IMG/VR virus record: IMGVR_UViG_3300041585_000069
Coordinates: 1 to 30,959 of that record
Strand: one strand, 5' to 3'
Origin: a virus
DNA: 30,959 nt
In this document: positions 8,852-25,651 of the stretch, piece after piece
Layout: the number at the start of each line of letters is the position of its first letter
Numbering within the stretch: the first letter of the stretch is position 1
Notes under the pieces: model-generated
The model's input: the letters and a program-made list of their open reading frames with translations, nothing else
Told to the model about the DNA's origin: nothing
The model's database searches: none
Position numbers and translations under genes: made by a program

Positions 8852-11514
8852 ACGAACTTCCCGTTTCGCTGCGCCGAGCGAAGCGCCTTCACCAGCGCGT
8901 CACCGTTGTTGCGGAACAGCCGCTCCACGCTCTGCGCGTCAATCGCCTGCACATGGAGGGCCACCGCCCCGCCGCCCCCGCCCCCGCCCTCGGCCATCGC
9001 CCGCACGGCGTCGGCCTGCTTGGCGGGCAGCACCATTTCACGGGCGTGCAGTTGGGTAATGGGGTTCACGCCGGCCGGAATGTCGTAGCCGCCGCTGGCC
9101 GACGCAGCCACCAGGCCACCAATGACCATTGCATAAGTCTCGGCGTAGGCGGCAGCGGCCAGCGCGGGGCCCACATAGGGCACGCTCGCCACCGACGCGG
9201 CAGCAGCGCCAGCGGCAATGCCGGCCTCGGCGGGGATGACGCTGGCCGCTTCCGCCTTCTTGCTGACGATGGACGCCCCCGTGCTGAAGCCCATCAAGGC
9301 CGCCAGCGCCCTGAACATGCCGCTGCTGGCCATGAGTTTGGTTGACTCGCCGGCCAGGTAGGCGGCCACGGGCTTGGTCACCATCATTTGCACGTAGGTG
9401 GTGGCCATGCTCATCCACATGGCCTTCATCTTTGCGCCGAAGGTTTTGCTCCGGTCGAACATGGAATCCAGCCCGCTTTGAAACTGGCCCTGCATGGTTT
9501 TCTGGAAATCCATGATGGGCTTGTTCTTGGCGATGGCCGTGTCGTTCGCTAGCTTCACCTGCTTGCCCTGGTACTCCATTTCGAGCGTGAACAGTTCTTC
9601 GGCGATCCTGCGCCGCTCCGCCGCGTCAACGGTGAGCAGCGCCAGCCGGTCGGTGAGCGCCTGGCGCTCTGCGGCATACCGGGCGGCGGCCAGTTGAGCG
9701 TGCAACGCAAGTTCCTCCGTCTCGGTGATTTGGCCGAACTCCTTGAGCACGCGAATCTTTTCCTCCTGCCCGGCGATGTCGATGTCGGCCAACTTCTTGG
9801 CATAGGCCAAGTCTTGCTCCACCAGCTTTTTGTTGCGGTCGTCGAGGGCCTTGGCGAGTTCGCGCTCATTCACCACGGCCGCGTCGCGCCGCTTCATGCC
9901 AATGAGGGCAAGCTCACCTTCGATCTTCAGTTGCGCAGCCTTCAGGCCGTTCAGCTTGGCCACGTCGCCGGCCTCTACCTTGCGCTGCTGGGCCGCGTTT
10001 TGGGCGAGTTCGGCCTTCTTGCCGGCCGCCTCGGAGTCCAGGCCGGCGTTCTCGATTACCAGCTTTTGCGCGTAGAAGGCGCGGTCGCTGGAAAGCTCCT
10101 TGTCGTGCTGCTCGGCGTTCAGGCGGGTAGCCTCTGCCAGGGCCTGCTTTTGAAGCGCCAGGGCCGCATCCATGCCCGCCTTGGCGATGGCGCCGGTGTT
10201 GTCGTCCTTGGCCTTGATGACAGCGCGCTTGCCTGACGAGTCGGCGGGGCTGGTGGTGGGGGTGACCTTGCCCTTGGCCAGCGGGTCGTTCATGAGGGCC
10301 TTCTCAAGATCGGCAGAGCCCTTGGCCGCGATTTCGAGGATTCGCCTGCCGCTGTCGGCCACGATTTTCTCGCGCCGCTTGAACCCGTCTTCCCACGCCT
10401 TCGTGGCGCCGGCAAAGTCTTTCTCAACAATCACCTTTTCCACTATTTCGCCGAACGTGACGATCCAGTCAACAGTCTGCGCAATGGCGCTGCCCACAAG
10501 CTCAAAGCTAACTGCAAGGCCGGTACCGAAAATGACCACGGCTGCTTGCAGCACGCTCAACAGGTTGGCGAAGAACCGCATGCCCGTCATGCCGGCGGTG
10601 TTCACGCCAAACACGCCGTTGATGCTCTCGCCGATGGCCGAGAAGGCACCCTTCAGGGCCGACCACAGGGCCTTCACGCTTCCAACAATGGAGTCTTGCA
10701 CCACAAGGTAGGTGCTCATGACGCCGCGCATGACGGTAACGGCCGCAGGGCCCTCGCTCTTGAAGAAGTCGGCCATGCTGGTGAGGCCAGGAATGAGAGC
10801 TTCGCCAATGGTGCGGGAAATGCCCTTCATGACCAAATCCATGCCCGCCTTGGACTCCTTGTATCGGTCGGAGGCAGCCACACTCTCTACGCCGACAACG
10901 AGGTTCAAATCGGAAGCGGCCTGCCGGGTTTCCTCCGTTTCGCCCTTGAACTCGTTGATGAACCGGGTGAGCGTGGTGTACTCGCGCCCGTAGATTTTGT
11001 TGGCCTCAATGTTGCGGTCTGTGCCCTCGCGGAACCCCATGAGCTTGGCGTTCACGTCCATCATGATGTCGCGGCTGTCGCGGAAGGCGCCGTTCGAGTC
11101 TTTCACCTTCACGCCCAGCGCGGCGAACTTCTCGCCACCCTGCGACAGGGCCATCGTCACTCGCTTGCCGGCAGAGGCCACGTTCTCGGCGTCAATGCCG
11201 GCCAGGCGCAGCGCAACGCCAAACGTGCTGGCTTCGGTGGTGCTGATGCCCAGCCCGCGCCCCATTGCAATGGCTGACCGGGTAATGTGGTCGGCGTCGG
11301 CAACGAACTGGCGCATGGCGGCGCCACCCGCCACGGCGGCCGTGATGGCGGCCAGGCCCCGGGTAACCATCGCAAACTGCCCTTGCAGGCCTTCGAGCGA
11401 GGCCTTCATTTGGCCCACCGAATTCTTCACCGCGTCGGCGGCCTGACGCGCCGCAGCAGTCGCGCCGGTGGCGTCACCACCGAACACTACATTCGCACCT
11501 TGCTCTGTCGTCAT
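8848..11514 (-). CDS. Tail tape measure protein
   Basis: This is an 888-residue protein. The N-terminal region (to about 280) is Ala-rich and helical, with FVADADHITRSAIAMGRGLGIS and LRLAGIDAENV as in other tape measures of this type. Residues about 285-350 carry long hydrophobic helices, and 440-700 is charged coiled coil. The end has NPITQLHAREMVLPAKQADAVR, a run of glycines, and HVQAIDAQSVERLF...RNGKFV, a C-terminus seen in lambda-H-like and HK97-like tape measures. It sets tail length and guides DNA release. At about 1.5 angstrom per residue the tail would be roughly 130 nm. It starts 9 bases after the gpGT stop; the junction contains eight consecutive C on the coding strand and no strong ribosome-binding site, so coupling to gpGT translation is likely. 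Confidence 0.93.
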   Translation of the reverse strand: MTTEQGANVVFGGDATGATAAARQAADAVKNSVGQMKASLEGLQGQFAMVTRGLAAITAAVAGGAAMRQFVADADHITRSAIAMGRGLGISTTEASTFGVALRLAGIDAENVASAGKRVTMALSQGGEKFAALGVKVKDSNGAFRDSRDIMMDVNAKLMGFREGTDRNIEANKIYGREYTTLTRFINEFKGETEETRQAASDLNLVVGVESVAASDRYKESKAGMDLVMKGISRTIGEALIPGLTSMADFFKSEGPAAVTVMRGVMSTYLVVQDSIVGSVKALWSALKGAFSAIGESINGVFGVNTAGMTGMRFFANLLSVLQAAVVIFGTGLAVSFELVGSAIAQTVDWIVTFGEIVEKVIVEKDFAGATKAWEDGFKRREKIVADSGRRILEIAAKGSADLEKALMNDPLAKGKVTPTTSPADSSGKRAVIKAKDDNTGAIAKAGMDAALALQKQALAEATRLNAEQHDKELSSDRAFYAQKLVIENAGLDSEAAGKKAELAQNAAQQRKVEAGDVAKLNGLKAAQLKIEGELALIGMKRRDAAVVNERELAKALDDRNKKLVEQDLAYAKKLADIDIAGQEEKIRVLKEFGQITETEELALHAQLAAARYAAERQALTDRLALLTVDAAERRRIAEELFTLEMEYQGKQVKLANDTAIAKNKPIMDFQKTMQGQFQSGLDSMFDRSKTFGAKMKAMWMSMATTYVQMMVTKPVAAYLAGESTKLMASSGMFRALAALMGFSTGASIVSKKAEAASVIPAEAGIAAGAAAASVASVPYVGPALAAAAYAETYAMVIGGLVAASASGGYDIPAGVNPITQLHAREMVLPAKQADAVRAMAEGGGGGGGAVALHVQAIDAQSVERLFRNNGDALVKALRSAQRNGKFV

Positions 11515-11522
11515 GGGGGGGG

Positions 11523-12073
11523 TCAGCCTCGGGTTACCGGGAACAGGTCGAGCAGGCTGTTGCCGTGCTCGTCAATGCCTGACTTGTTGGCCGCCTTCGC
11601 CTGGTGCTCATGCACGCCCATGTAGGACGCCACAAGCCAGTGCAACGGCGGGTTCTTGTCTTGAAACTTGGTGATGGCGGCCAGGCGGGGCAGCGTCATG
11701 TGGTCGTCTATGTACTCCCACGTCCACCCCGGAAAACAGGTGAGCAAGAAGGAGTACAGGTCGTCCCAATCTATCGGCTCCCCGCCCCCGCTTCCCCCGT
11801 GGCCACCAGCCCCGACTGGCCCATGATGGAGGCCACGCACATCGCCGAGTTGCGCAGATCGAGCAAGTCCAAAACCGCGTCCCGCGTCAACTCGGGGTAG
11901 TTGCGCGACAGCGCGGCGTGAACCACCACCGCCACGTCTTCCAGTTGGTCTTCGCCGGCCAGGCCACCGCCCAGCTTGTTGATGCTGGCCTTGTGCTCTT
12001 TGAGTTGCCGGAAGGACAGGGCCGGCACGACCCAATCCTTGCCGCCCATGTTGATGTTGTCGCCTTGGATCAT
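11523..12073 (-). CDS. Tail assembly chaperone, frameshifted long form (gpGT-like)
   Basis: This is a proposed -1 frameshift product. Translation starts at 12073 in the short chaperone and moves to the overlapping frame that ends at 11523, before the tape measure. The downstream-only part starts near GGGEPIDWDDLYSFLLTCF and ends LLDLFPVTRG, and it has no suitable start codon of its own near the overlap. The frame relation is exactly -1. The overlap holds GCC ACG GGG GAA GCG at 11803-11789, where the ribosome could slip G-GGG; this is not a perfect X-XXY-YYZ heptamer. In lambda-type phages the long form binds the tape measure and recruits tail-tube subunits. The exact slip point is inference. 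Confidence 0.7.
11771..12073 (-). CDS. Tail assembly chaperone, short form (gpG-like)
   Basis: This is a 100-residue, mostly helical protein. It starts at ATG 12073 with a good GGAG spaced 6 bases upstream and lies 3 bases after the major tail gene stop. It begins MIQGDNINMGGKDWVVPALSFRQLKEH, a pattern shared with tail-chaperone or tail-assembly proteins that sit between the major tail protein and tape measure. It should coat the tape measure protein during tail assembly together with the frameshifted form. The reading frame ends at TAG 11771, just inside the region where the second chaperone frame takes over. Confidence 0.8.
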   Translation of the reverse strand: MIQGDNINMGGKDWVVPALSFRQLKEHKASINKLGGGLAGEDQLEDVAVVVHAALSRNYPELTRDAVLDLLDLRNSAMCVASIMGQSGLVATGEAGAGSR

Positions 12074-12076
12074 GGG

Positions 12077-13165
12077 TTACTCCGAAGTGGCCAACGTCAT
12101 GACGTTGCCCGAGCCGTTGTCGAAGGCCTGGAAGTCGAATTCCGGCACCGCGAAGTCCTCGTTCTTGAAGCCGATGCTCATCTTGGAACTCACGCACAGC
12201 GGGAAGTCCATCGTGATGATCTTGCCCAGGTAGGCCACAGTCATGGTGCAGCCGAAGGTGGGCGCGTAGCCCATCGGCAAGTTCTGCACCACGATGTTGC
12301 TGGACGACGAGTTGCTGGCGAAGGCGGCCAAGGTGTTGTACTGGAAGTGAATGAACACCGTGAGGCCCGTGTCGGCAGTCGAGAACACGTAGGCGCCGGT
12401 GGCAGGGTTCACGGTGTACTGGCCGGCAGCCGGCGCGCTCACAACGCGCTTCAGCGAGGTTCCCGTGGCGGCGTACTGGCAGCCCTTGTCCACGGCAAAG
12501 GTGTTGAAGGCGGGCAGCGCGGCCGTGCCGTTCACCGGCGGCGCTGCCATGTCGGTCATGGCAGCGGTGGTGAGGGTGATGGTGCCGGTGGCGCCCACGC
12601 CGGTGGCGCCGGTGAACACGTTTGCACCGTTCACGCCAACACCAGCAGCCGGCGCGGCGCTGTAGGCGCCCGATTGCTGCACCTGCAAGCCGGTGGCGTT
12701 GCCGGCGTTCACGGAGGTGACCACCATGATGGTCTTGGCGCCGCCAACCGCCGCCAAGGTGCCGGCGGAAGCGGTAATGGTGTCACCCACCACGTAGCCC
12801 GTGCCGCCCGCCATACTGGCACTGACGGTGCCCAGCGCGCCTGCGGTGGGCACGACCACGCCCACGGTGTCGGTGTAGAGGCCCACGATGCCGGGATTGA
12901 TGGTCTGCCCGAAGAACAGCGCATTCCACACGGCGGCAGTAATGCGGGCTGGCTTCACCTTGATCTGCAACTTCACCTTGCCTCGGGCGGCGGCCAGCGC
13001 GAACTGGTTTTGGCCGTGCAGTTCCTTGATGTCGCCCGAGAAATCGACGCTACCTTCTTGCAGCGCCATGAGCGGGTAGGGGGTGGGATTCAGCACGCTC
13101 GCGCCAAGCGCGGTCTGAAGTTGGGTAACGGTCATGTTGCCGGCACCGAAAGCGTATTGGCTCAT
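12077..13165 (-). CDS. Major tail (tube) protein with inserted repeat domain
   Basis: This is a 362-residue protein. Start ATG 13165 has AGGA 6 bases upstream, and this AGGA abuts the right end of a CTACC-N5-GATAG element. Residues 1-110 and 200-362 look like a tail-tube fold (MALQEGSVDFSGDIKELHGQNQFAL, RGKVKLQIKVKPARITAAVWNALFFG; near the end ITMDFPLCVSSK and FAVPEFDFQAFD). Between them, about residues 112-190, is an insert with GGTGYVVGDTITA and AGNATGLQVQQSGAYSA, a beta repeat I know from phage and surface proteins. The protein polymerises into the tail tube, and the insert would decorate the outer surface. The 362-residue length is above the usual 150-250 for this class, as expected for an inserted domain. 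Confidence 0.85.
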   Translation of the reverse strand: MSQYAFGAGNMTVTQLQTALGASVLNPTPYPLMALQEGSVDFSGDIKELHGQNQFALAAARGKVKLQIKVKPARITAAVWNALFFGQTINPGIVGLYTDTVGVVVPTAGALGTVSASMAGGTGYVVGDTITASAGTLAAVGGAKTIMVVTSVNAGNATGLQVQQSGAYSAAPAAGVGVNGANVFTGATGVGATGTITLTTAAMTDMAAPPVNGTAALPAFNTFAVDKGCQYAATGTSLKRVVSAPAAGQYTVNPATGAYVFSTADTGLTVFIHFQYNTLAAFASNSSSSNIVVQNLPMGYAPTFGCTMTVAYLGKIITMDFPLCVSSKMSIGFKNEDFAVPEFDFQAFDNGSGNVMTLATSE

Positions 13166-13641: not shown

Positions 13642-14129
13642 GCCTTCACCCCCTGCCCGGCCGCCTTGTACTCGCCATTGGCCAGCACCGCGTCGGTCAT
13701 GCGGCGCACGATGTCTGCCTTCATTTCGGCCAGCGTGGAGCGCAGGAACGAACGCTCTGGCAGCTTCACCTGGCGGGTGTGCGCAGCAACCACCGCAGGC
13801 TTGCCGCCGGTCTTGCTCTTGCGCAGGTGGGCCCGCACGCTCACGGCGCCCGTGAAGCCGTATTCATGGGCGCGGGCGTAACTCACGTTTGTGCCCACTT
13901 GCGCGGTCGCCGTGGTGGGCCCGTTGGTGAGCTTGAAGGTGATGCTGCGGCGCAGGCGGCCAGTGCGAACGTGCAGCACCTGATCGCTGAGCTTGTCGCC
14001 CTTCACCCGGGCCACCATTTCGACGGCCACGCGGGCAACCACCTGGCGCAACCTGTCCATCATGGCCGGGCCGAGCAGCGCGGTGTTGCGGATGAGGGCG
14101 TCACCACCCACGACGCGGCCGTGGATCAT
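13638..14129 (-). CDS. HK97 gp10-like tail completion protein
   Basis: This is a 163-residue protein starting at ATG 14129, which overlaps the connector stop as ATGA. The longer open frame to 14336 is shadow sequence. Central sequence is typical of the HK97-gp10/virion-morphogenesis family: VRTGRLRRSI, then VGTNVSYARAHEYGF, then PERSFLRSTLAEM with a helical end. Members act at the head-tail or tail-completion step. Neighbours on both sides (connector and terminator-like protein) support this role. Confidence 0.85.
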   Translation of the reverse strand: MIHGRVVGGDALIRNTALLGPAMMDRLRQVVARVAVEMVARVKGDKLSDQVLHVRTGRLRRSITFKLTNGPTTATAQVGTNVSYARAHEYGFTGAVSVRAHLRKSKTGGKPAVVAAHTRQVKLPERSFLRSTLAEMKADIVRRMTDAVLANGEYKAAGQGVKA

Positions 14130-14683
14130 GTCGGCACCACCTTGCAGTAAGAGGCCAGCGAGCTTTTCACCGTGCTGGGCATGGGCGTGGTGATGAACGA
14201 AACCGTTTCGCCGGCAACGCTCTTGCTGGCGTTGCCGATGCGGTCTTTCTCGCGGTAGCGGAACGACACCCAATCGAGGCAGGCCTGGTCGATGTCGCTG
14301 GGCGGCGTAGCGAAGCCCGCGGTGTAGTTCAGCCACACATTGCGCCGGCCCATTGGCCAGCGGCCGCCCACGTAGGTGAAGCCGCGACTGTCGAAGCCCC
14401 AGCCAACAGCGCGAACACCGTCGATCGATTGAGGCAGCAGCACGCCGTTCACGTACACGCTCTGCACGGCCGCAATGGGGTAGCCGGCCGCCATGATGCG
14501 GTCGCCGCCGGTGCCGTCGCGCTTCTCGGCGAAGGAGGCCGTGAGGACGCTGCGGCCAAGGTAGTTCACGATGTCGGCGCTGGTGTTGGTAATGAGGCGC
14601 GCCAGCAGCGCGTCCTCGGCTGACGAGGTGAGGCCCAGCCAGTCCTTGACGGCAGCAAGTGTGGTGAAGTCGCCAGCGGCCAC
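14126..14683 (-). CDS. Head-tail connector (gp6-like adaptor)
   Basis: This is a 185-residue protein with a GTG start at 14683. The N-terminus FTTLAAVKDWLGLTSSAEDALLARLITNTSADIVNYLGR is the helical pattern of phage head-tail adaptors that form a ring under the portal. A later NVWLNYTAGFATPPSDIDQACLDWVSFRYREKDRIG is also typical of this family. It is expected to bind the portal base and dock the tail. The start is set by homology-like sequence; there is no clear ribosome-binding site, and the upstream stop is 16 bases away, so reinitiation is likely. Confidence 0.87.
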   Translation of the reverse strand: MAAGDFTTLAAVKDWLGLTSSAEDALLARLITNTSADIVNYLGRSVLTASFAEKRDGTGGDRIMAAGYPIAAVQSVYVNGVLLPQSIDGVRAVGWGFDSRGFTYVGGRWPMGRRNVWLNYTAGFATPPSDIDQACLDWVSFRYREKDRIGNASKSVAGETVSFITTPMPSTVKSSLASYCKVVPT

Positions 14684-14699: not shown

Positions 14700-15065
14700 T
14701 TACTGCGCAGCGGCGGAGGCGGCGCGGTCGGCTTCGATAGCAGCCTCATGCTCGTCGGCGCGGCTGGCTTCGGCTTCGGCGGTGTGGGCTTCTGCGGCGG
14801 TGGCGGCAGCTTCGGCAGCGGCAGCGGCAGCGGCGCGGGCGGCGTTTGACGGCCGGCCTCCCTTGTTCTTGGTGGTCGCGGCGAACGCGGCGACTTCGGC
14901 TTCGACTTCGGCTTCGACTTCGGCTTCGGCCGGGGCGATGGCGAAGCCGTGCGCGGCCAGAGTGGGCGCGGCGTGGGCGGGCACGTCGAGGAAGCCGTCT
15001 ACCACCTGGAAGGTTTCGCCTTCAAAGGAAACGCAGGTGGAGCCGGCGGGGGCAGTGAGTCGCAT
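14700..15065 (-). CDS. Small Ala/Glu-rich phage protein
   Basis: This is a 121-residue protein if translation starts at ATG 15065; the frame stays open to 15140, where an in-frame ATG overlaps the repeat element. The first 45 residues (MRLTAPAGSTCVSFEGETFQVVDGFLDVPAHAAPTL split over two strands) resemble small proteins found between capsid and connector genes. The rest is low complexity: a run of EVEAEVEAEV, then KNKGGRPSNAARAA, which resembles an AT-hook-like GRP core, then Ala/Glu. It is probably helical and flexible. Function is unknown. There is no clear ribosome-binding site before 15065. Confidence 0.65.
   Translation of the reverse strand: MRLTAPAGSTCVSFEGETFQVVDGFLDVPAHAAPTLAAHGFAIAPAEAEVEAEVEAEVAAFAATTKNKGGRPSNAARAAAAAAAEAAATAAEAHTAEAEASRADEHEAAIEADRAASAAAQ
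14893..14929 (-). repeat. 12-base tandem repeat encoding EVEA repeats
   Basis: The unit ACTTCGGCTTCG (plus strand) repeats about three times, encoding the alternating Glu/Val/Ala stretch of the Ala/Glu-rich protein. A slippage-prone tract like this can vary in length between relatives. Confidence 0.75.
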
Positions 15066-15132
15066 GAGGAAAGTCCGGTGAGGTGTTTGGCGGGCGCCGC
15101 CTGAAGTGCGGACGGCGCCCGGGGTGCTACAG

Positions 15133-15157: not shown

Positions 15158-16651
15158 TCAGCCGTTGGCGATGTTGGTGATCGTGGCCACAGCGAAGGGG
15201 CAGTACACGGCGAGAACTTGCTCGCTGTAGACGCCGCTTTCGTACTGGCGCGACCGAACCGGCCAGTCAATTTGGTAGTAGTCCTGGCGGGTTATCACTT
15301 CCGCCACGTTCTGCACCTCGTTGTTCTGGTAGTAGATCGGCAATTCTTCGCAGTACGCCATGATCGTGCCCGGGGGCAGCTTCGGGTGAATGCGAACCGG
15401 GATGATCTGCCCGCCACCCGGCATGAACGGGTTGAAGTAGTTGTTCACCACGCCGCCGGCCGTCACGCCGTAAGGACTCTTGCCGTCGGTGTTCACGCGC
15501 AGCAGCGAGCCCGAGCCAGACGCGGCCATGATCTTGGTCGTGATGTTCTTGATTTCCTGCGAGTTGCAGTAGATGACCGTGGCGCCGAGTTGGTACGAAT
15601 CCCACATGGATTGCAGCAGCGCGTCGATTTCCACCACCGAGCCTCGGCCCGACGAGGTAAGCGGCGTGCCCACACCGACCGTGCCAATCGGCATCACCGT
15701 GTTGATGGCGCCAGACGCCGACTTGAAAGCCGTATAGAGCAGGCCGTCGCTGCCGGTGGTGTTGGTGGTGTTGTCAGCCGTGATGGCCGAGGCGTTTTGC
15801 GTGCCCACGCCAATGGCGGAAATGCTCACGCTGTTGATGGTGGTGATCGCCACCAGCAGCTCCGCGCCAGAGGCGCCGAAGTACCAGGCATAGGCCACAG
15901 CGCCGCTCACCGAAGCAACCGTCGCGGTAATGGCCTGACCGGCGGCCGGGGTAATGGTGGCCACGGGCGACTTGGTGGACGATCCGCCCTTCACGGTGAA
16001 GGCGGTGCTGCCGTCAGCCGGGGTCACCGACTTGGTGGTGGCCACGCCGACGGCGCTCACTGCGGAGTTGAAGTAGCCCTCCAACGTGAGCGACACGCAG
16101 TAGACGTTGTAGGCAGTAGCGGCCAGCGCGGTCGTGCCGGCAACAGCGGCCAGGGTGGGGGTGGCGGGGGCGGCAACAGTGACCGATACGTTGCCGGCAA
16201 TGATGCTCATTTCTTCCTTGAGCATCATTTTCTGCAACAGGCGAATGGCCATCGTGGCGCGCACGTCTTCAAACGAGCGGCCGGCGTTCACCGCCTCGAA
16301 GGTCACGTTGTCTTCTTCGCCAATGGTGGCGTAGCTGGCAGCCTTCGCCGCAGTGGTGTAGGACATCACGCCAGCGCGCTTGCCTTCAGGCACCCAGCCG
16401 GTGCTGTCGAAGCCCGAGCCGATGATGCTGGAAACCACGCGCCAGTTGGTCGCCAGGCCGACACCACCACCCACGCGAGGGATGGAGTTGCGCAGCGGCG
16501 TGAACACCGGGTACAGGTTCTTGGCGGGGCCTTGCAAGTCGAAGGCAACGAGGTTGGTTGCTTGCGTGATCGACTTGGAAATGTCGTTGTCGGGCTCGGC
16601 CAGCGCGCCCTTCATGAGAGCGAGCGTTTCGGCAGTGGTTTGTGCATTCAT
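15158..16651 (-). CDS. Major capsid protein (HK97-fold) with Ig-like insertion
   Basis: This is a 497-residue protein. ATG 16651 has GGAG 7 bases upstream; an in-frame TTG four codons earlier is less likely. Residues 1-150 (ITQATNLVAFDLQGPAKNLYPVFTPLRNSIPR, IGEEDNVTFEAVNAGRSFEDV) and 310-497 (VVEIDALLQSMWDSYQLGATVIYCN, PIYYQNNEVQNVAEVITRQDYYQIDWP split by eye) look like an HK97-fold coat protein. About residues 155-305 is a Ser/Thr/Ala-rich beta insertion (AATAYNVYCVSLTLEGYF, AVAYAWYFG) resembling Ig or Fn3 domains. The gene follows the protease-scaffold gene, as in canonical head modules. The insertion probably projects from the capsid surface. Confidence 0.88.
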   Translation of the reverse strand: MNAQTTAETLALMKGALAEPDNDISKSITQATNLVAFDLQGPAKNLYPVFTPLRNSIPRVGGGVGLATNWRVVSSIIGSGFDSTGWVPEGKRAGVMSYTTAAKAASYATIGEEDNVTFEAVNAGRSFEDVRATMAIRLLQKMMLKEEMSIIAGNVSVTVAAPATPTLAAVAGTTALAATAYNVYCVSLTLEGYFNSAVSAVGVATTKSVTPADGSTAFTVKGGSSTKSPVATITPAAGQAITATVASVSGAVAYAWYFGASGAELLVAITTINSVSISAIGVGTQNASAITADNTTNTTGSDGLLYTAFKSASGAINTVMPIGTVGVGTPLTSSGRGSVVEIDALLQSMWDSYQLGATVIYCNSQEIKNITTKIMAASGSGSLLRVNTDGKSPYGVTAGGVVNNYFNPFMPGGGQIIPVRIHPKLPPGTIMAYCEELPIYYQNNEVQNVAEVITRQDYYQIDWPVRSRQYESGVYSEQVLAVYCPFAVATITNIANG

Positions 16652-16761: not shown

Positions 16762-18165
16762 TTAGAAGGGGCGTCCCATGCGAATGGCGTTGCCGCCGTC
16801 TGCGTGGAGCTTTCGGATTTGTGCGAGTGCGGTTCCTTCATGGTCAACAGTGCCGTCAGCCTTCAACAGCGGCTTGCCCTCGGCAACAGTGGCGGCGTCG
16901 GCTGCGGCCTGCACGGCATCAAGGCCCAGGTCGTCACCCTTCTGGATCACCAGCAGGCGGCCTCGCGGCTGCGCGGGCAGCTTGTCGAAGCGGGCCTTGA
17001 GTTCGGTGAACTGCTTGGCGATGTCGGCCACGCTGCCTTCGAGGCCGGCCACCTTGCCGATGGCGGCGTCACGCTCGGCGGTGAGCGCGGCCAGGTCGGC
17101 GGTGACGCGCTTGGCGATGTCGCCACCGGCGGCGGCGTAGTACATGGTCGATCCGCCGCTCACGTGCCGATTGCTGTCGGGGCTGTCGGGGTTCACGTTG
17201 GCTGACATTTCGGCCACTTCCTCAGTGACCATCGCCACCAGCGTGCGCCCACCCTGCACCAGCAAGTCGTGCAGCATGGAAGGCACCACCGAGTTGTCCT
17301 TCTCGCGGGCGGCTTCTTCGTTCTGGTTCTGCACCAGCGATCCAAGCTGCTTCAACAGCATGGCAAGCTGCGCCGACGTGCCCATGCCCTTGGCAATGGC
17401 GACCGATTCGGTAGTCGAAATGGCCGCGACTTCAAAATTCGAGGCCAGGGCGGCCGCGCCTTCTGCCTTGGCTACCCCGGGGGTAGCGGCAGCAGGCGCA
17501 GGAACGGGCGCAGGGGCGGCCGTGGGCTCGGCCGTGGGGGCCGGCGTGGGGGCCAGGCCGGCGGCGTGCTCGCCCTTGGCAAAGGCCAGCAGCGCCACCG
17601 GGTCGGCGGTGCCCTTGTCCAGCAGTTCGGCCAGGGCCAGCACGGCTTCGCGCTGCGCGGCCTTGAGGATGGCGTCGGCATCAAGCTCGATGCCGTCGCC
17701 CTTCCACAGGCTGATGACGCATTCCGGGTTGGCGGGGCGGTCAACCAGCGAGATTTCGCTCAGCTTCATGCCGCTGATGACGCCATCGACCTTGGCCGTG
17801 GACTTGCCGCCGATGGAGAAGCCCTTGTAGACGCCGGACTTCACCTTTTTCCAGGCCGCGTCATCAACGATGTGGGCTTCGATCATCATGCCCGTGTCGT
17901 CCACGCTCACCGACTTGGCGATGCCGACAGCCGAGGGCTGGTGCATTTCGCGGATGTTGGCGAACTTCATGTAGTCGTCCACCGCGTCCACCATCGCCGA
18001 CTTGGTAACGCGCTCGCCCTGACTGTCCAGCGACAGCGTGCTGGCGTAGCCGTACACCAGGCGCTTTTCGTCGTCCACCTTGTTGATGTCAACGAAGAAG
18101 GAGGCGTGAGCAAGGCCCACGCCAAGGGTGGCGGCAAGGGTGGCGGCGGCAGCGGCTTTGGTCAT
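16762..18165 (-). CDS. XkdF-type prohead protease fused to scaffold-like region
   Basis: This is a 467-residue protein. Residues 20-155 match the XkdF/prohead serine-protease pattern: RLVYGYASTLSLDSQGERV, MHQPSAVGIA (His75), GVYKGFSIGGK (Ser117) and LSEISLVDRPANPECVIS (Glu137). The residue assignments are mine by eye. Residues 180-260 are Ala/Pro-rich linker, and 300-420 are coiled-coil-like (ITADLAALTAERDAAIGKVAGLE pattern). In this phage type, protease and scaffold are often one polypeptide that cleaves itself and the capsid N-terminus. The protein ends GNAIRMGRPF. The first 20 residues resemble a signal peptide (AAAAATLAATLGVGLAHAS), but this is probably just an Ala-rich prohead N-terminus. 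Confidence 0.85.
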   Translation of the reverse strand: MTKAAAAATLAATLGVGLAHASFFVDINKVDDEKRLVYGYASTLSLDSQGERVTKSAMVDAVDDYMKFANIREMHQPSAVGIAKSVSVDDTGMMIEAHIVDDAAWKKVKSGVYKGFSIGGKSTAKVDGVISGMKLSEISLVDRPANPECVISLWKGDGIELDADAILKAAQREAVLALAELLDKGTADPVALLAFAKGEHAAGLAPTPAPTAEPTAAPAPVPAPAAATPGVAKAEGAAALASNFEVAAISTTESVAIAKGMGTSAQLAMLLKQLGSLVQNQNEEAAREKDNSVVPSMLHDLLVQGGRTLVAMVTEEVAEMSANVNPDSPDSNRHVSGGSTMYYAAAGGDIAKRVTADLAALTAERDAAIGKVAGLEGSVADIAKQFTELKARFDKLPAQPRGRLLVIQKGDDLGLDAVQAAADAATVAEGKPLLKADGTVDHEGTALAQIRKLHADGGNAIRMGRPF

Positions 18166-21367: not shown

Positions 21368-24300
21368 TCATTCGGCCACGACGAATCCGTCTTTGTTTAC
21401 CCTGTAGCCCTTGGCTGGCTTGTGACCCGCCACCAGCTTGCCGTGGCATTGTGTGCCGTCGCTGAAGGTGATGCTGGCCACGCTGTCGAGGTCGCCGGTG
21501 AAGTGCCGCTCGAACAGTGCGTCGGTCATGGTGCGGTCGTAGGCGCCAGGCCGGTCACCGGCAAACTCGGCGGCGGGGTCGCCCGGCACGACGCCGTGGC
21601 TGGCCACCACCAGGCTCTTGTGGGCGTCACCATGCACCTTGCTGATGTCGCCGGGGGCAACTGACTTGCGGGCCTTGGGGGCCTTGGGGGTTGGCAACTT
21701 GTTGTCTCCATGCGCTGAACCGACGTACACGCCAATGAATTCAGTTCGGCGGGTGCCGTCGTAGAGCTTCACAGACTTGCCGCTCACGATGTTGATTTTC
21801 GCACCCCGAGCAATGGTGAGTTCCTTCTCTTGGTCGAAGGCCTTGGTGAAGCCGTTTGGAAACATCGCCTCGCTATTCTTTGGCATGACGATGTGCAGCA
21901 GCGTTTTCATGCTGCCGCTGCCGCTGCTGGAAAAGTTTTCGCCCACCGAACGACGCGACGACGTGCAAACGAATCTGTCCTCGAAGTGCGGCAGCATGAC
22001 CGAGCTTCCGGCCTTGAGGCCGCTCAGGATGGCGTCATGCACGTCTGTTGGCAGCGTCATGCCCCGGAACACCACCACGGGCGATGCCATGACGACGGCT
22101 GACTTCTGGAACGCCAAGTCAAGGGCAGGAATTTCGCTTGCCTTTACCGAGTAGGTGGCGCCCTGGTGATTTGCGAATGCCGCCACCGTCGTGTTCAGAA
22201 GCTCTTGCGGGGTCATGCCCAGCTTGGCGTGAATGTCCGCTGCGCCGTACTCAAAGTCGCTCAGCAGTTCGCTCAAGCTGTTCTGCTCGGCCGCCTCATT
22301 CATTTCGTCGTCTGTAAACGTGTCGGCCTTCTTCACCAGTTTGAGGTGGGCCACGGCCTCGTCGCCCAGCGCGTGCATCCATTTGCCCTTGTCTTGCACC
22401 CCGCCCTGCCCGTGCCACATGCCCTGCACCGGCTTGCCGTCCGCGCCGCCTTCGCTGCTCCACATGCCGCCAGGGCCGCGTGGCTGGTCGGGGTTGTAGG
22501 CCTTGAGGATGGCCTCGAAGGCGGCGAGTGCGCGCTCCAACTTCTCGGTGGCGGCTTCCTCTGCGGCGCCTTCATCGAAGCTCAGCACGGGCAGCAAATC
22601 GCACCGACAGTTCGGGTGAAACGGGGGGCCATCAATGAATTCACCATCGGCCTCGAACTGCTCGTTCATGCCGATGGTGACGCCATCGAGCGCGTCGCAC
22701 AGGTCGCAGCAGCCCTCGCCGGTGATCCACTGCTTCTCGCTCACCACGCCGCTGGCCTCATAGGCGGCCAGGTTGCCCTGCACGTCGGCGTAGGCGGTTT
22801 CGGTGCGGGCGATAACCTCGGCCCGTTCGGCGCTGAAGCCGTAGCTGTCTTCGAGTTCGCTGGCCAGCCGGTCGTTGCTCCAACCCTCCTTCATGGCGTC
22901 GGCGATGTCGCTGCGCAGCATTTCGCGGGTGCTCTCGCTGATGCGGGCCACAAGCTCGGCAGCGCGCTCGGCCGCGTGCTGCACAGCGCCCTCGTTCACC
23001 AGCGCCAGCATGTCGGTGGTGGCCATGCCCACCTGCGTGAGCGCCACATGGCCGGCGTCGGCCAGCACCTGCGACAGCACGGCAGCCACCTCGGGGGTCA
23101 TGCTCTCGAAGGGCGCCAGGTCGAGCCCGGCCAGGATGGCGTCAATGAGTTCCTTGTCGGCCCCGGCCTTCTCCATAACCTCTGCGCGGTACACCTGATC
23201 GAGCAACCAGGCGTCGGCGTGCGGGCCGCCGTGCTGTTTACCCACCGGCTCATTCATGAACGCCACGATGGAGTCGCGGCGCGCCAGCAGTTCCTTGCCC
23301 ACGTTCTTGTGCGACGCGGTGAGCCCAGCAACAGCGGCCAGCAGTTTTGCCTCCGGCAGCTTGGCCAGCTTGTCTGCGGCCTTCACGAACGCGCCACGGT
23401 GCGACGCCATGAGCGGGGCAAAGGCCTTGCCGCTGGCGAAGGATTTGTCGAGCATGGCCTTCAGGTCGGGCGTGGCGTCGCCGCCGAAGGGCTTGGGCCC
23501 GCCCTGCGCTCGAAACATGAAGCTGCCGCCCGTGTCCATGATGGCCAGGTTGCCGGCCTTGTCCATGCCCATGTTGTCGAACACCAGGCCCACCACGTCC
23601 CAATTCTTCGTGAGCGCGCTCGCCACGTAGGCGTTGGCCGCCTGCTGCACCTGCTTGTCGGTCAGGTTCTGCCAGCCCTTGCCGCCAAGCGGGGTCACGT
23701 CTTTCCACTCCGAAGCGGACGACGCCTTGCCGTTCACGGTTTCGTGCGTGTGGCCCATTGCCTGCACGCCCATGAGTTCGTAGAGCTGGTCGGCCGCCAC
23801 CTCGGCGTGCACCTGGTCGGCGTTGTCGGGATGCTTCACGTAATGCTTGGTGCCGGCCGGGCTGGTGTAGACCCCGCCGCTGTTGCTGCCAAGCTGGCCG
23901 CCAACCTTTGTCCACTTGCCGCCCTCGTCGCGCTCCTGATTTTCGTCGTATGCCTTGCCCATGACCACGGGCCGGGGCGTGGCGCCGTAGGCCTGCACAG
24001 CGGCCGCAATGATGGCGGCCTTGATGGCGGTCAGGTGCTTGGTGACCTTCCGGGTGAGCACGCGGCGCAGCGCGCCTATTGCCGGGCGATTGCGGTCAAT
24101 AGGAGAAGCGCCTTTTTTTGACGCCTTCCTGATCGCGTCCTGCGCAGCGGCAACAGTCGATTCAGATTTCGCAACAGCGGCAGCGGCAGCGGCAGCGTCA
24201 ACAGCGGGCGGCTTCTCCCCGGGATTGGGCTTCTCCACGGGCCTGGGCGGCGGATCACCGGGATCGTCGGCCTCACCGGGGGCCACGGGCTCTGGCGGTG

Positions 24301-25651
24301 GCGCGGTGGCGGCCTTGTTGTTGGCTTCGAGCAGCAGGGCGTAATCCACCGGGCCGTTGGCAGTGAAGAACACCGGGCGGTCGCCACCCTCCACGGGGTC
24401 GGCGCCGTCGTCAGCGCGGCACTCGTTCATGGTTTTGCGCCCGCTCCTGAGCTTGGCGTCGTTGATGGCGTTTTGCTCGGCCGGGTCGATGGTTTTGCCC
24501 TCGTTCCACTTGACGTGCAAGTCGGTATAGCCGAAGAACCTCCACACCATGATGTCGAGAATGCCCTTCATCCACAGCATGACCGGCTGCAAGCCCTCCA
24601 TGATGGCGGCATCCTGCGCGCTCTCTGCGGTGGCGCGGTTCACGCTGGCCACGAACGGCGTGGGGCTCACGCTGAAGGCGTAGCACACGATGCGGGCCAG
24701 CCACTCATCGAAGCCGTCCTTCAAAGCGCCGTCCTTGGTGTTGATGGGCGCGACGCCGTGGGGAATGAACAGGCCCTTGCGGCGCCCGGCGGTGTTGCCC
24801 GCCAACATGCTCATCCACCAATCGTTAAAGTCGCGCACCTGATCCATGTTCCAGTCTTGCGGGCACGACATCAACAGGTCGGGGGTGCTGCCCTCGGTGT
24901 AGAACTGCATTTGGTGCAGCGAGCGGCGAATGGCAGTGTTCACCGTCATGATGATCTGCTCCACCGGGCTGAAGCCGTACACCTTGTTGCTGCGCCTGTT
25001 GCGCATGGCGTACAGCAGTTCTTCGCTGGTGTAGTTACTCGCCGGCACGCCCTTGAGCACTTGCTGATAGGCCGGGTCGGGCGGTTGCGGGGTGCGGCCC
25101 TGCTCGTTGATGACGCGCTTGATAGTGGACGCATCCATGATGTCGAGGCGGTGCAGGCTGCCGTCGTTGGCCCGCCACGGGTACACCGCCACCGCGTCGA
25201 GCACGAACATATCTTCGAGAATCATGCGCTGCCAGGCGGCGTAGTCGTTCTCGCCATCGGGCAGGCGGAAGAAGGCCTCCACCTCCTTGCAGCGGGCGTC
25301 GGACTTGCCGTGCTCGTCAACCGGCACCACCGAGAAGGTTTGCATGGCCATTTGGTCTTTGCGCGTTTCGATCACCAGGCGCAGCACGTCACAGGCGTCT
25401 GCCAGCGAGCGCATTTGCGCGAAGGTGACGGGCTCGTCGGCACGCGGCTTGTTGCGCAGGTTGAAGCCGGCAGCGAAGTCGAGTTGTCGGCCTCGCACGC
25501 TGGGCTGCATGGCCTCGGGCACCATCGGCGTGAGCGGCAACAGTGGGCCGAACCAGCCCTGCCCGGGCTTGCCGAAGCTGTAGTTCGCCCCGACCGCAAC
25601 GCGCTTGAGCGTGTCGCTGTCGATGGGGGTTTTGGTGCCTTCGCCTGCCAT
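21368..25651 (-). CDS. Portal - kinase-like - MuF - ADP-ribosyltransferase-like fusion
   Basis: This is a 1427-residue protein in one open frame. Residues 1-445 are portal-like (ETRKDQMAMQTFSVVP, PVEQIIMTVNTAIRR, RKGLFIPHGV, ATAESAQDAAIMEGLQPVM). Residues 446-515 are Pro/Ala linker. Residues 581-735 are kinase-like in the HipA/actin-fragmin sense: a Gly-rich start, NWDVVGLVFDN (Asp685, Asn693) and NLAIMDTGGSF (Asp706). Residues 895-1022 are the MuF/SPP1-gp7 domain, with RTETAYA, CCDLCDALDG and HPNCRCD. Residues 1190-1310 are ADP-ribosyltransferase-like, with FRG (Arg1196), FVCTSS (the STS-equivalent) and EKE (Glu1275, Glu1277). The motif KAY-x3-Q-x-R-x2-GG-x-W occurs twice, at 566-580 and 1050-1064, before each effector domain. 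A single portal polypeptide would carry both enzymes in or on the head; delivery to the host is inference. No frameshift is seen. Confidence 0.9.
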   Translation of the reverse strand: MAGEGTKTPIDSDTLKRVAVGANYSFGKPGQGWFGPLLPLTPMVPEAMQPSVRGRQLDFAAGFNLRNKPRADEPVTFAQMRSLADACDVLRLVIETRKDQMAMQTFSVVPVDEHGKSDARCKEVEAFFRLPDGENDYAAWQRMILEDMFVLDAVAVYPWRANDGSLHRLDIMDASTIKRVINEQGRTPQPPDPAYQQVLKGVPASNYTSEELLYAMRNRRSNKVYGFSPVEQIIMTVNTAIRRSLHQMQFYTEGSTPDLLMSCPQDWNMDQVRDFNDWWMSMLAGNTAGRRKGLFIPHGVAPINTKDGALKDGFDEWLARIVCYAFSVSPTPFVASVNRATAESAQDAAIMEGLQPVMLWMKGILDIMVWRFFGYTDLHVKWNEGKTIDPAEQNAINDAKLRSGRKTMNECRADDGADPVEGGDRPVFFTANGPVDYALLLEANNKAATAPPPEPVAPGEADDPGDPPPRPVEKPNPGEKPPAVDAAAAAAAVAKSESTVAAAQDAIRKASKKGASPIDRNRPAIGALRRVLTRKVTKHLTAIKAAIIAAAVQAYGATPRPVVMGKAYDENQERDEGGKWTKVGGQLGSNSGGVYTSPAGTKHYVKHPDNADQVHAEVAADQLYELMGVQAMGHTHETVNGKASSASEWKDVTPLGGKGWQNLTDKQVQQAANAYVASALTKNWDVVGLVFDNMGMDKAGNLAIMDTGGSFMFRAQGGPKPFGGDATPDLKAMLDKSFASGKAFAPLMASHRGAFVKAADKLAKLPEAKLLAAVAGLTASHKNVGKELLARRDSIVAFMNEPVGKQHGGPHADAWLLDQVYRAEVMEKAGADKELIDAILAGLDLAPFESMTPEVAAVLSQVLADAGHVALTQVGMATTDMLALVNEGAVQHAAERAAELVARISESTREMLRSDIADAMKEGWSNDRLASELEDSYGFSAERAEVIARTETAYADVQGNLAAYEASGVVSEKQWITGEGCCDLCDALDGVTIGMNEQFEADGEFIDGPPFHPNCRCDLLPVLSFDEGAAEEAATEKLERALAAFEAILKAYNPDQPRGPGGMWSSEGGADGKPVQGMWHGQGGVQDKGKWMHALGDEAVAHLKLVKKADTFTDDEMNEAAEQNSLSELLSDFEYGAADIHAKLGMTPQELLNTTVAAFANHQGATYSVKASEIPALDLAFQKSAVVMASPVVVFRGMTLPTDVHDAILSGLKAGSSVMLPHFEDRFVCTSSRRSVGENFSSSGSGSMKTLLHIVMPKNSEAMFPNGFTKAFDQEKELTIARGAKINIVSGKSVKLYDGTRRTEFIGVYVGSAHGDNKLPTPKAPKARKSVAPGDISKVHGDAHKSLVVASHGVVPGDPAAEFAGDRPGAYDRTMTDALFERHFTGDLDSVASITFSDGTQCHGKLVAGHKPAKGYRVNKDGFVVAE

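Follow-up and report, generated by a model that had tools for sequence, protein, structure and literature searches.

A beta-rich domain, most likely at the G-loop position, is present in every compared relative of an HK97-fold phage capsid protein

The major capsid protein of this virus is predicted to adopt the HK97 fold and to carry, most likely at the position of the G-loop, a beta-rich domain of about 147 residues. Since this domain is present in every relative compared, it seems to belong to the fixed architecture of the head and not to be an optional decoration. The window analysed here is the whole virus record of 30,959 bases, which may itself be a fragment. The relevant features of the head region are the following.

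15158..16651, minus strand: major capsid protein, predicted HK97 fold, 497 aa, phrog_13692 family (fold, PHROG match, neighbours and two annotated relatives)
16762..18165, minus strand: prohead (S78-type) protease ORF, directly upstream of the capsid gene (Pfam PF14550 / PF04586 above cut-off)
14126..14683, minus strand: head-tail adaptor, downstream of the capsid gene after a small ORF (phrog_442, E 2e-29)
15746..16189, minus strand: beta-rich domain, residues ~155-302, most likely at the G-loop position (pLDDT, alignments A1, A2 and A5, register with HK97)
15983..16075, minus strand: extra hairpin region inside the domain, residues ~193-223 (alignments and model)
16196..16264, minus strand: predicted P-domain spine helix ending at the insertion, residues 130-152 (DSSP of the model)
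15725..15742, minus strand: predicted short helix after the insertion, residues 304-309 (DSSP of the model)

As judged from its AlphaFold2 model, the product of the ORF at 15158-16651 (minus strand) is an HK97-fold major capsid protein. The model, built from a 65-sequence alignment, had a mean pLDDT of 86.8 and a pTM of 0.85. In a VIA structural comparison, 492 of the 993 aligned chains reached a Z score of at least 8, and the rows shown were mostly phage coat proteins and encapsulins. The best match was the coat protein of SPO1 (9vel_D; Z 18.5, 272 aligned residues, rmsd 5.1); SU10 (7z46_J; Z 17.7, 278 aligned, rmsd 5.3) and HK97 prohead II (2gp1_A; Z 16.9, 244 aligned, rmsd 3.5) were also matched. 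The SU10- and SPO1-type (Herelleviridae) major capsid proteins are thus alike in fold and gave the best structural matches. At the level of sequence, the capsid protein (P0001) matched phrog_13692 over its full length (E 4e-103, residues 4-495), as did all 65 family members, and the model gives a structural identity to this PHROG, which is listed as being of unknown function. P0001 had no Pfam or NCBIfam match at E<=1, and PF05065 (Phage_capsid) matched neither P0001 nor any other part of the record. PF17236 (SU10_MCP) did not match P0001; 4 of the 65 family members matched it at E<=0.1 (best 1.4e-6), and so did the Bacillus phage Goe8 protein P0003.

The gene neighbourhood was that expected of a coat gene, with the prohead protease on one side and the head-tail adaptor on the other. 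In annotated relatives, an adaptor or connector lay one to two genes downstream of the capsid gene, and an annotated protease was found upstream in two records only. For two homologues, those of Alicyclobacillus phage MMB025 and Arthrobacter phage Sonali, the annotation reads major head or major capsid protein, and in the other annotated records examined the homologue is labelled hypothetical. Two further ORFs of the window were observed. A small Ala/Glu-rich ORF (14703-15068, minus strand) directly follows the capsid gene. Further away, a single 1427-aa ORF (21368-25651, minus strand), two stretches of which had no PDB match at E<=0.1, joins a portal domain (residues 99-413) to a Mu F domain (912-1019) and has long extra regions.

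The original prediction had described about 150 residues of Ser/Thr/Ala-rich beta sequence inside the capsid protein, and this description was confirmed. Ser, Thr and Ala account for 73 of the 147 residues of the domain versus 87 of 350 elsewhere in the protein (Fisher P 1.2e-7), and 8 charged residues (K/R/D/E) fall in the domain versus 53 elsewhere. The strands modelled by AlphaFold2 lie between residues 166 and 277, and the 10-residue blocks across 161-300 had mean pLDDT values of 85-98. The recognisable elements of the coat fold fall outside residues ~155-302, in agreement with a discrete domain that interrupts the coat fold; in the structure prediction, the region did not form part of the core of that fold. 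The placement proposed at the outset (15700-16190, residues ~155-318) took in the domain but overshot its lower edge by about 45 bases. The proposed "Ig-like" character fits the beta-rich model, but the domain matched no Ig, Big, Fn3 or carbohydrate-binding Pfam family, and the label thus comes solely from that model. A PHROG scan with the domain by itself recovered its own family (38 of 38) and, weakly, four others, the best being a "virion structural protein" at 0.0045. A profile search of the PDB with the domain returned one chain, NB1A2, apparently a nanobody (E 0.097), which we treated as a chance match, as we did PapE (E 0.022); sequence searches yielded no credible solved relative of the capsid protein. 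A Foldseek match of the capsid model to the Goe8 protein (151 columns, 23% identity) could stem from a similar beta module located elsewhere in the coat protein, but we make no such claim.

The site of the domain was then considered. HHalign placed "LKEEGQLLNGD" of HK97 gp5 (ending at HK97 residue 227) on "LKEEMSIIAGN" of the capsid protein (ending at residue 154); at E 0.29 this alignment is weak alone, and its register was used only jointly with the modelled helix 130-152, with which it agrees. The insertion starts right after "LKEEMSIIAGN". Because the register and the helix agree, the domain most likely occupies the G-loop position, although this falls short of proof. Several HK97-fold coat proteins likewise contain an accessory domain, including the P22 I-domain, the E-loop insertions of T4 and crassviruses and the BIG2 domain of phi29, but the sites differ: the P22 domain lies in the A-domain beta sheet and those of T4 and crassviruses in the E-loop, whereas the domain described here follows helix 130-152. 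P74-26, too, has an enlarged G-loop, but as a hairpin (residues 166-188) and not a segment of ~147 residues.

HHalign comparisons with the single coat proteins of SU10, HK97 and Arthrobacter phage Jasmine were not significant, nor were those with Goe8-type proteins, taken singly or as an alignment. At the level of motifs, the interval between the helix-end motif and the GL/DGL motif comprises ~7 residues in HK97, 15 in Goe8, 82 in Jasmine and ~147 in the window, the Goe8 and Jasmine equivalences being motif-level and not derived from a significant sequence alignment. In Goe8-type proteins, ~15 residues separate the GD and DGL motifs. The Jasmine interval, in the coat protein encoded at 10519-11733 of its record (L278), suggests that the site has been reused by different fillers. 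We also noted that the Goe8 ORF (L280, 34745-36160), annotated as "putative membrane bound protein", is probably the major capsid protein, since it matches SU10_MCP above the cut-off and lies two genes after the prohead protease. No homologue without the domain was found by sequence, and the term "insertion" therefore refers to the comparison with other coat-protein families.

We next examined how constant the domain is. An insert of 135-169 residues was present in 253/253 relatives longer than 440 aa. With the window included, the alignment held 254 capsid sequences, 208 of them distinct (207 of the 253 relatives), after four partial loci (L096, L098, L150 and L166) of 257 had been left out; reduced to 65 non-redundant sequences, window included, it always showed the domain. 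Each scan retained its 80 best matches, a limit that biases the set towards close relatives, and searches with the core only were added as an offset. A tblastn search with the post-domain region alone recovered exactly the five phage records that the complete protein had found. A profile of the core without the domain matched 1/369, 4/385, 2/61 and 4/249 genomes, seeds included, and all 10 resulting genome loci (3 seeds and 7 others) carried the domain; six of the seven were new, and the seventh (L366) was identical to L090, already counted. The named hosts included Caulobacter, Brevundimonas (phage from sewage), Thermoanaerobacterium, Arthrobacter (phage from soil) and N. gonorrhoeae, as well as a Herbaspirillum strain isolated from human sputum. 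What varies is the hairpin region at ~193-223, which is absent from the Thermoanaerobacterium, Alicyclobacillus and Arthrobacter (Sonali) phage homologues; the Sonali protein is otherwise an end-to-end homologue with the domain (HHalign E 3e-42, 29% identity).

The domain also shares the history of the core. Insert and core identities were correlated over 2080 pairs (Mantel r 0.78, with 0 of 2000 permutations as high), indicating that the domain travels with the core. Together with its presence in all relatives compared, this co-inheritance led us to reject an optional module swapped between phages. The idea of a decoration on an otherwise bare coat protein did not hold either: T4 Hoc likewise displays Ig-type domains on a phage head, but it is a separate protein whose Ig domains are reported to be variable (PMC10385173), unlike the domain found here in all relatives compared.

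At long range, core and insert diverged about equally (identity 0.427 and 0.455), whereas at short range the insert was less conserved (0.688 versus 0.828 for the core; 17 pairs). In finer bins, the domain was the least conserved at short range of the folded segments that were compared, with an identity of, for instance, 0.843 versus 0.921 for the core. For dN/dS we took the pairs with a core identity of 0.90-0.995 and finite values (1602 pairs), and from these 76 non-overlapping pairs with a core dS of at least 0.05. The median was 0.14 for the domain versus 0.075 for the core, and the domain exceeded the core in 68 of the 76 pairs. The domain, taken as a whole, thus showed no positive selection; it is under purifying selection, with a conserved framework and a freer surface. 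Its faster short-range evolution is compatible with surface exposure, as is the G-loop position, in line with the surface location first proposed; it would also fit a domain that is exposed, adhesive or under loose constraint, and purifying selection is compatible with a binding role too.

Which function, then, might the domain serve? We consider it fairly probable that the domain is an integral part of the coat protein which takes the place of the G-loop and helps the shell to assemble or to remain stable. This reading builds on the HK97-fold model, the confidently predicted beta domain, its presence in every relative compared, its co-inheritance with the core and the purifying selection acting on it. 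As to orientation and contacts, we infer that the domain would project outward near the two- and three-fold contacts and would touch the E-loop or domains of neighbouring subunits. It could thereby do the work of the G-loop in guiding procapsid assembly, and could also replace a separate cement protein by stiffening the mature head, any adhesion being secondary. An assembly or stiffening role is the likeliest because of the known contacts of G-loops and the roles of inserted domains in other coat proteins. In the HK97 procapsid, the G-loop pairs with the E-loop of a neighbour (PMC5957328); the G-loop of R4C contacts an E-loop (PMC10276861), and the enlarged G-loop of P74-26 contacts both the E-loop and a decoration protein (PMC6775164). 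Inserted coat domains, such as those in the A-domain of P22 and in the E-loop of T4 and crassviruses, are mostly tied to assembly or stability in the reports available (PMC5701804, PMC5957328, PMC10172136, PMC7602432).

Alternatively, the domain could be mainly a surface adhesin for glycans of the host surface or of the environment, a role that has been reported for T4 Hoc. Its beta-rich, Ser/Thr/Ala-rich and low-charge character would suit such a role, as would the fact that, of the folded segments compared, it changes fastest at short range; a link to adhesion has also been drawn for Ig-like domains of phage heads (PMC7602432, PMC10385173). Given the members in N. gonorrhoeae and in the sputum-derived Herbaspirillum strain, some glycan binding may occur. 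However, the presence of the domain in 253/253 relatives, its dN/dS of 0.14, the lack of a carbohydrate-binding or Ig Pfam match and the non-mucosal nature of the other named hosts all speak against this explanation, which we consider unlikely. Binding to mucus or glycans as the main role, as the original prediction had envisaged for such domains, was rejected, since neither family nor motif evidence was found for it and the non-mucosal hosts argue against it.

Less likely still is a neutral spacer, i.e., an exposed beta domain that was captured once in an ancestor, tolerated, and kept since it folds well, without a specific role. Relaxed constraint relative to the core would agree with this, as would the very different length of the same motif interval in other coat proteins, but none of the relatives compared, which come from named hosts of several phyla, has lost the domain, and five residues within the domain are invariant in alignment A2 (V183, G223, S228, T270 and D293). 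A docking platform for a head decoration or fibre protein encoded by another gene is very improbable: phi29 gp8.5 meets the BIG2 domain of its coat protein (PMC7602432), the P74-26 G-loop contacts a decoration protein (PMC6775164) and a small ORF without assigned role lies 3' of the capsid gene in the window and five annotated relatives, but no match to a decoration-protein PHROG was obtained at E<=0.1 for any of these six small ORFs, their few PHROG matches being to unknown families or weakly to RusA, portal and SSB.

Taking the assembly or stability role further, we tentatively propose, at somewhat less than even confidence, that the beta domain may have permanently replaced the G-loop and become an obligatory inter-capsomer staple in a widespread family that includes gonococcal prophages, and that the G-loop may be an evolutionary port of graded size for outer-shell domains in tailed phages. 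The corresponding series of sizes runs from ~7 residues in HK97 through 15 in Goe8, the 23-residue G-loop of P74-26 and 82 in Jasmine to 147 here. Accessory domains in HK97-fold coat proteins were known, and so were Ig-type domains in coat proteins (PMC7602432); what appears to be new here is a whole folded domain at the probable G-loop position. Within the literature covered on the G-loop and on Ig-like insertion domains, which took in few subscription papers, we found no whole domain at the G-loop. These results suggest the G-loop as a place where phage heads can gain additional built-in domains, and they are relevant to the question of how a coat protein comes to take over cement functions.

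The gonococcal prophage copy (L101, 2501-3982) is 37% identical to the capsid query over 99% of its length. A KEGG note on a relative ties the family to NGO0498 of a gonococcal dsDNA prophage, which the accessible part of PMC1931599 lists only as a 499-aa hypothetical protein. Siphovirus particles from gonococcal prophages have been imaged (PMC12186493), and the accessible parts of these two papers name no capsid gene for gonococcal phages; the family described here is probably the coat protein of the phages whose particles were imaged.

Finally, a separate insertion with a GGTGYVVGD motif had been predicted in the major tail protein, and it was indeed found.

12077..13165, minus strand: major tail tube protein P0002, 362 aa (phrog_8234; VIA structural match)
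12509..12844, minus strand: optional insertion with GGTGYVVGD, P0002 residues ~108-219 (alignment of relatives; low model confidence)

P0002 matched the tail tube protein 9jgi_G (VIA Z 12.9, 200 aligned residues, rmsd 6.0). Its model was poor at the insertion, with block pLDDT values of 42-56 over residues 111-210. The insertion by itself had no phage match at E<=0.001, and among 45 tail homologues one matched phrog_807 and one phrog_1280, both PHROGs with Ig-like names. After 79 of 177 tail-protein matches had been left out for being shorter than 239 aa, 98 relatives remained, and only 5 of these contained the ~110-residue insertion; L262 is an example of a close relative without it. The search with the tail protein itself supplied four of the five long tail proteins, and two of them (L259 and L260) are nearly alike. 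By sequence comparison, the tail-tube insertion is a truly optional module of this virion, and this separates it from the fixed capsid domain of the same particle.
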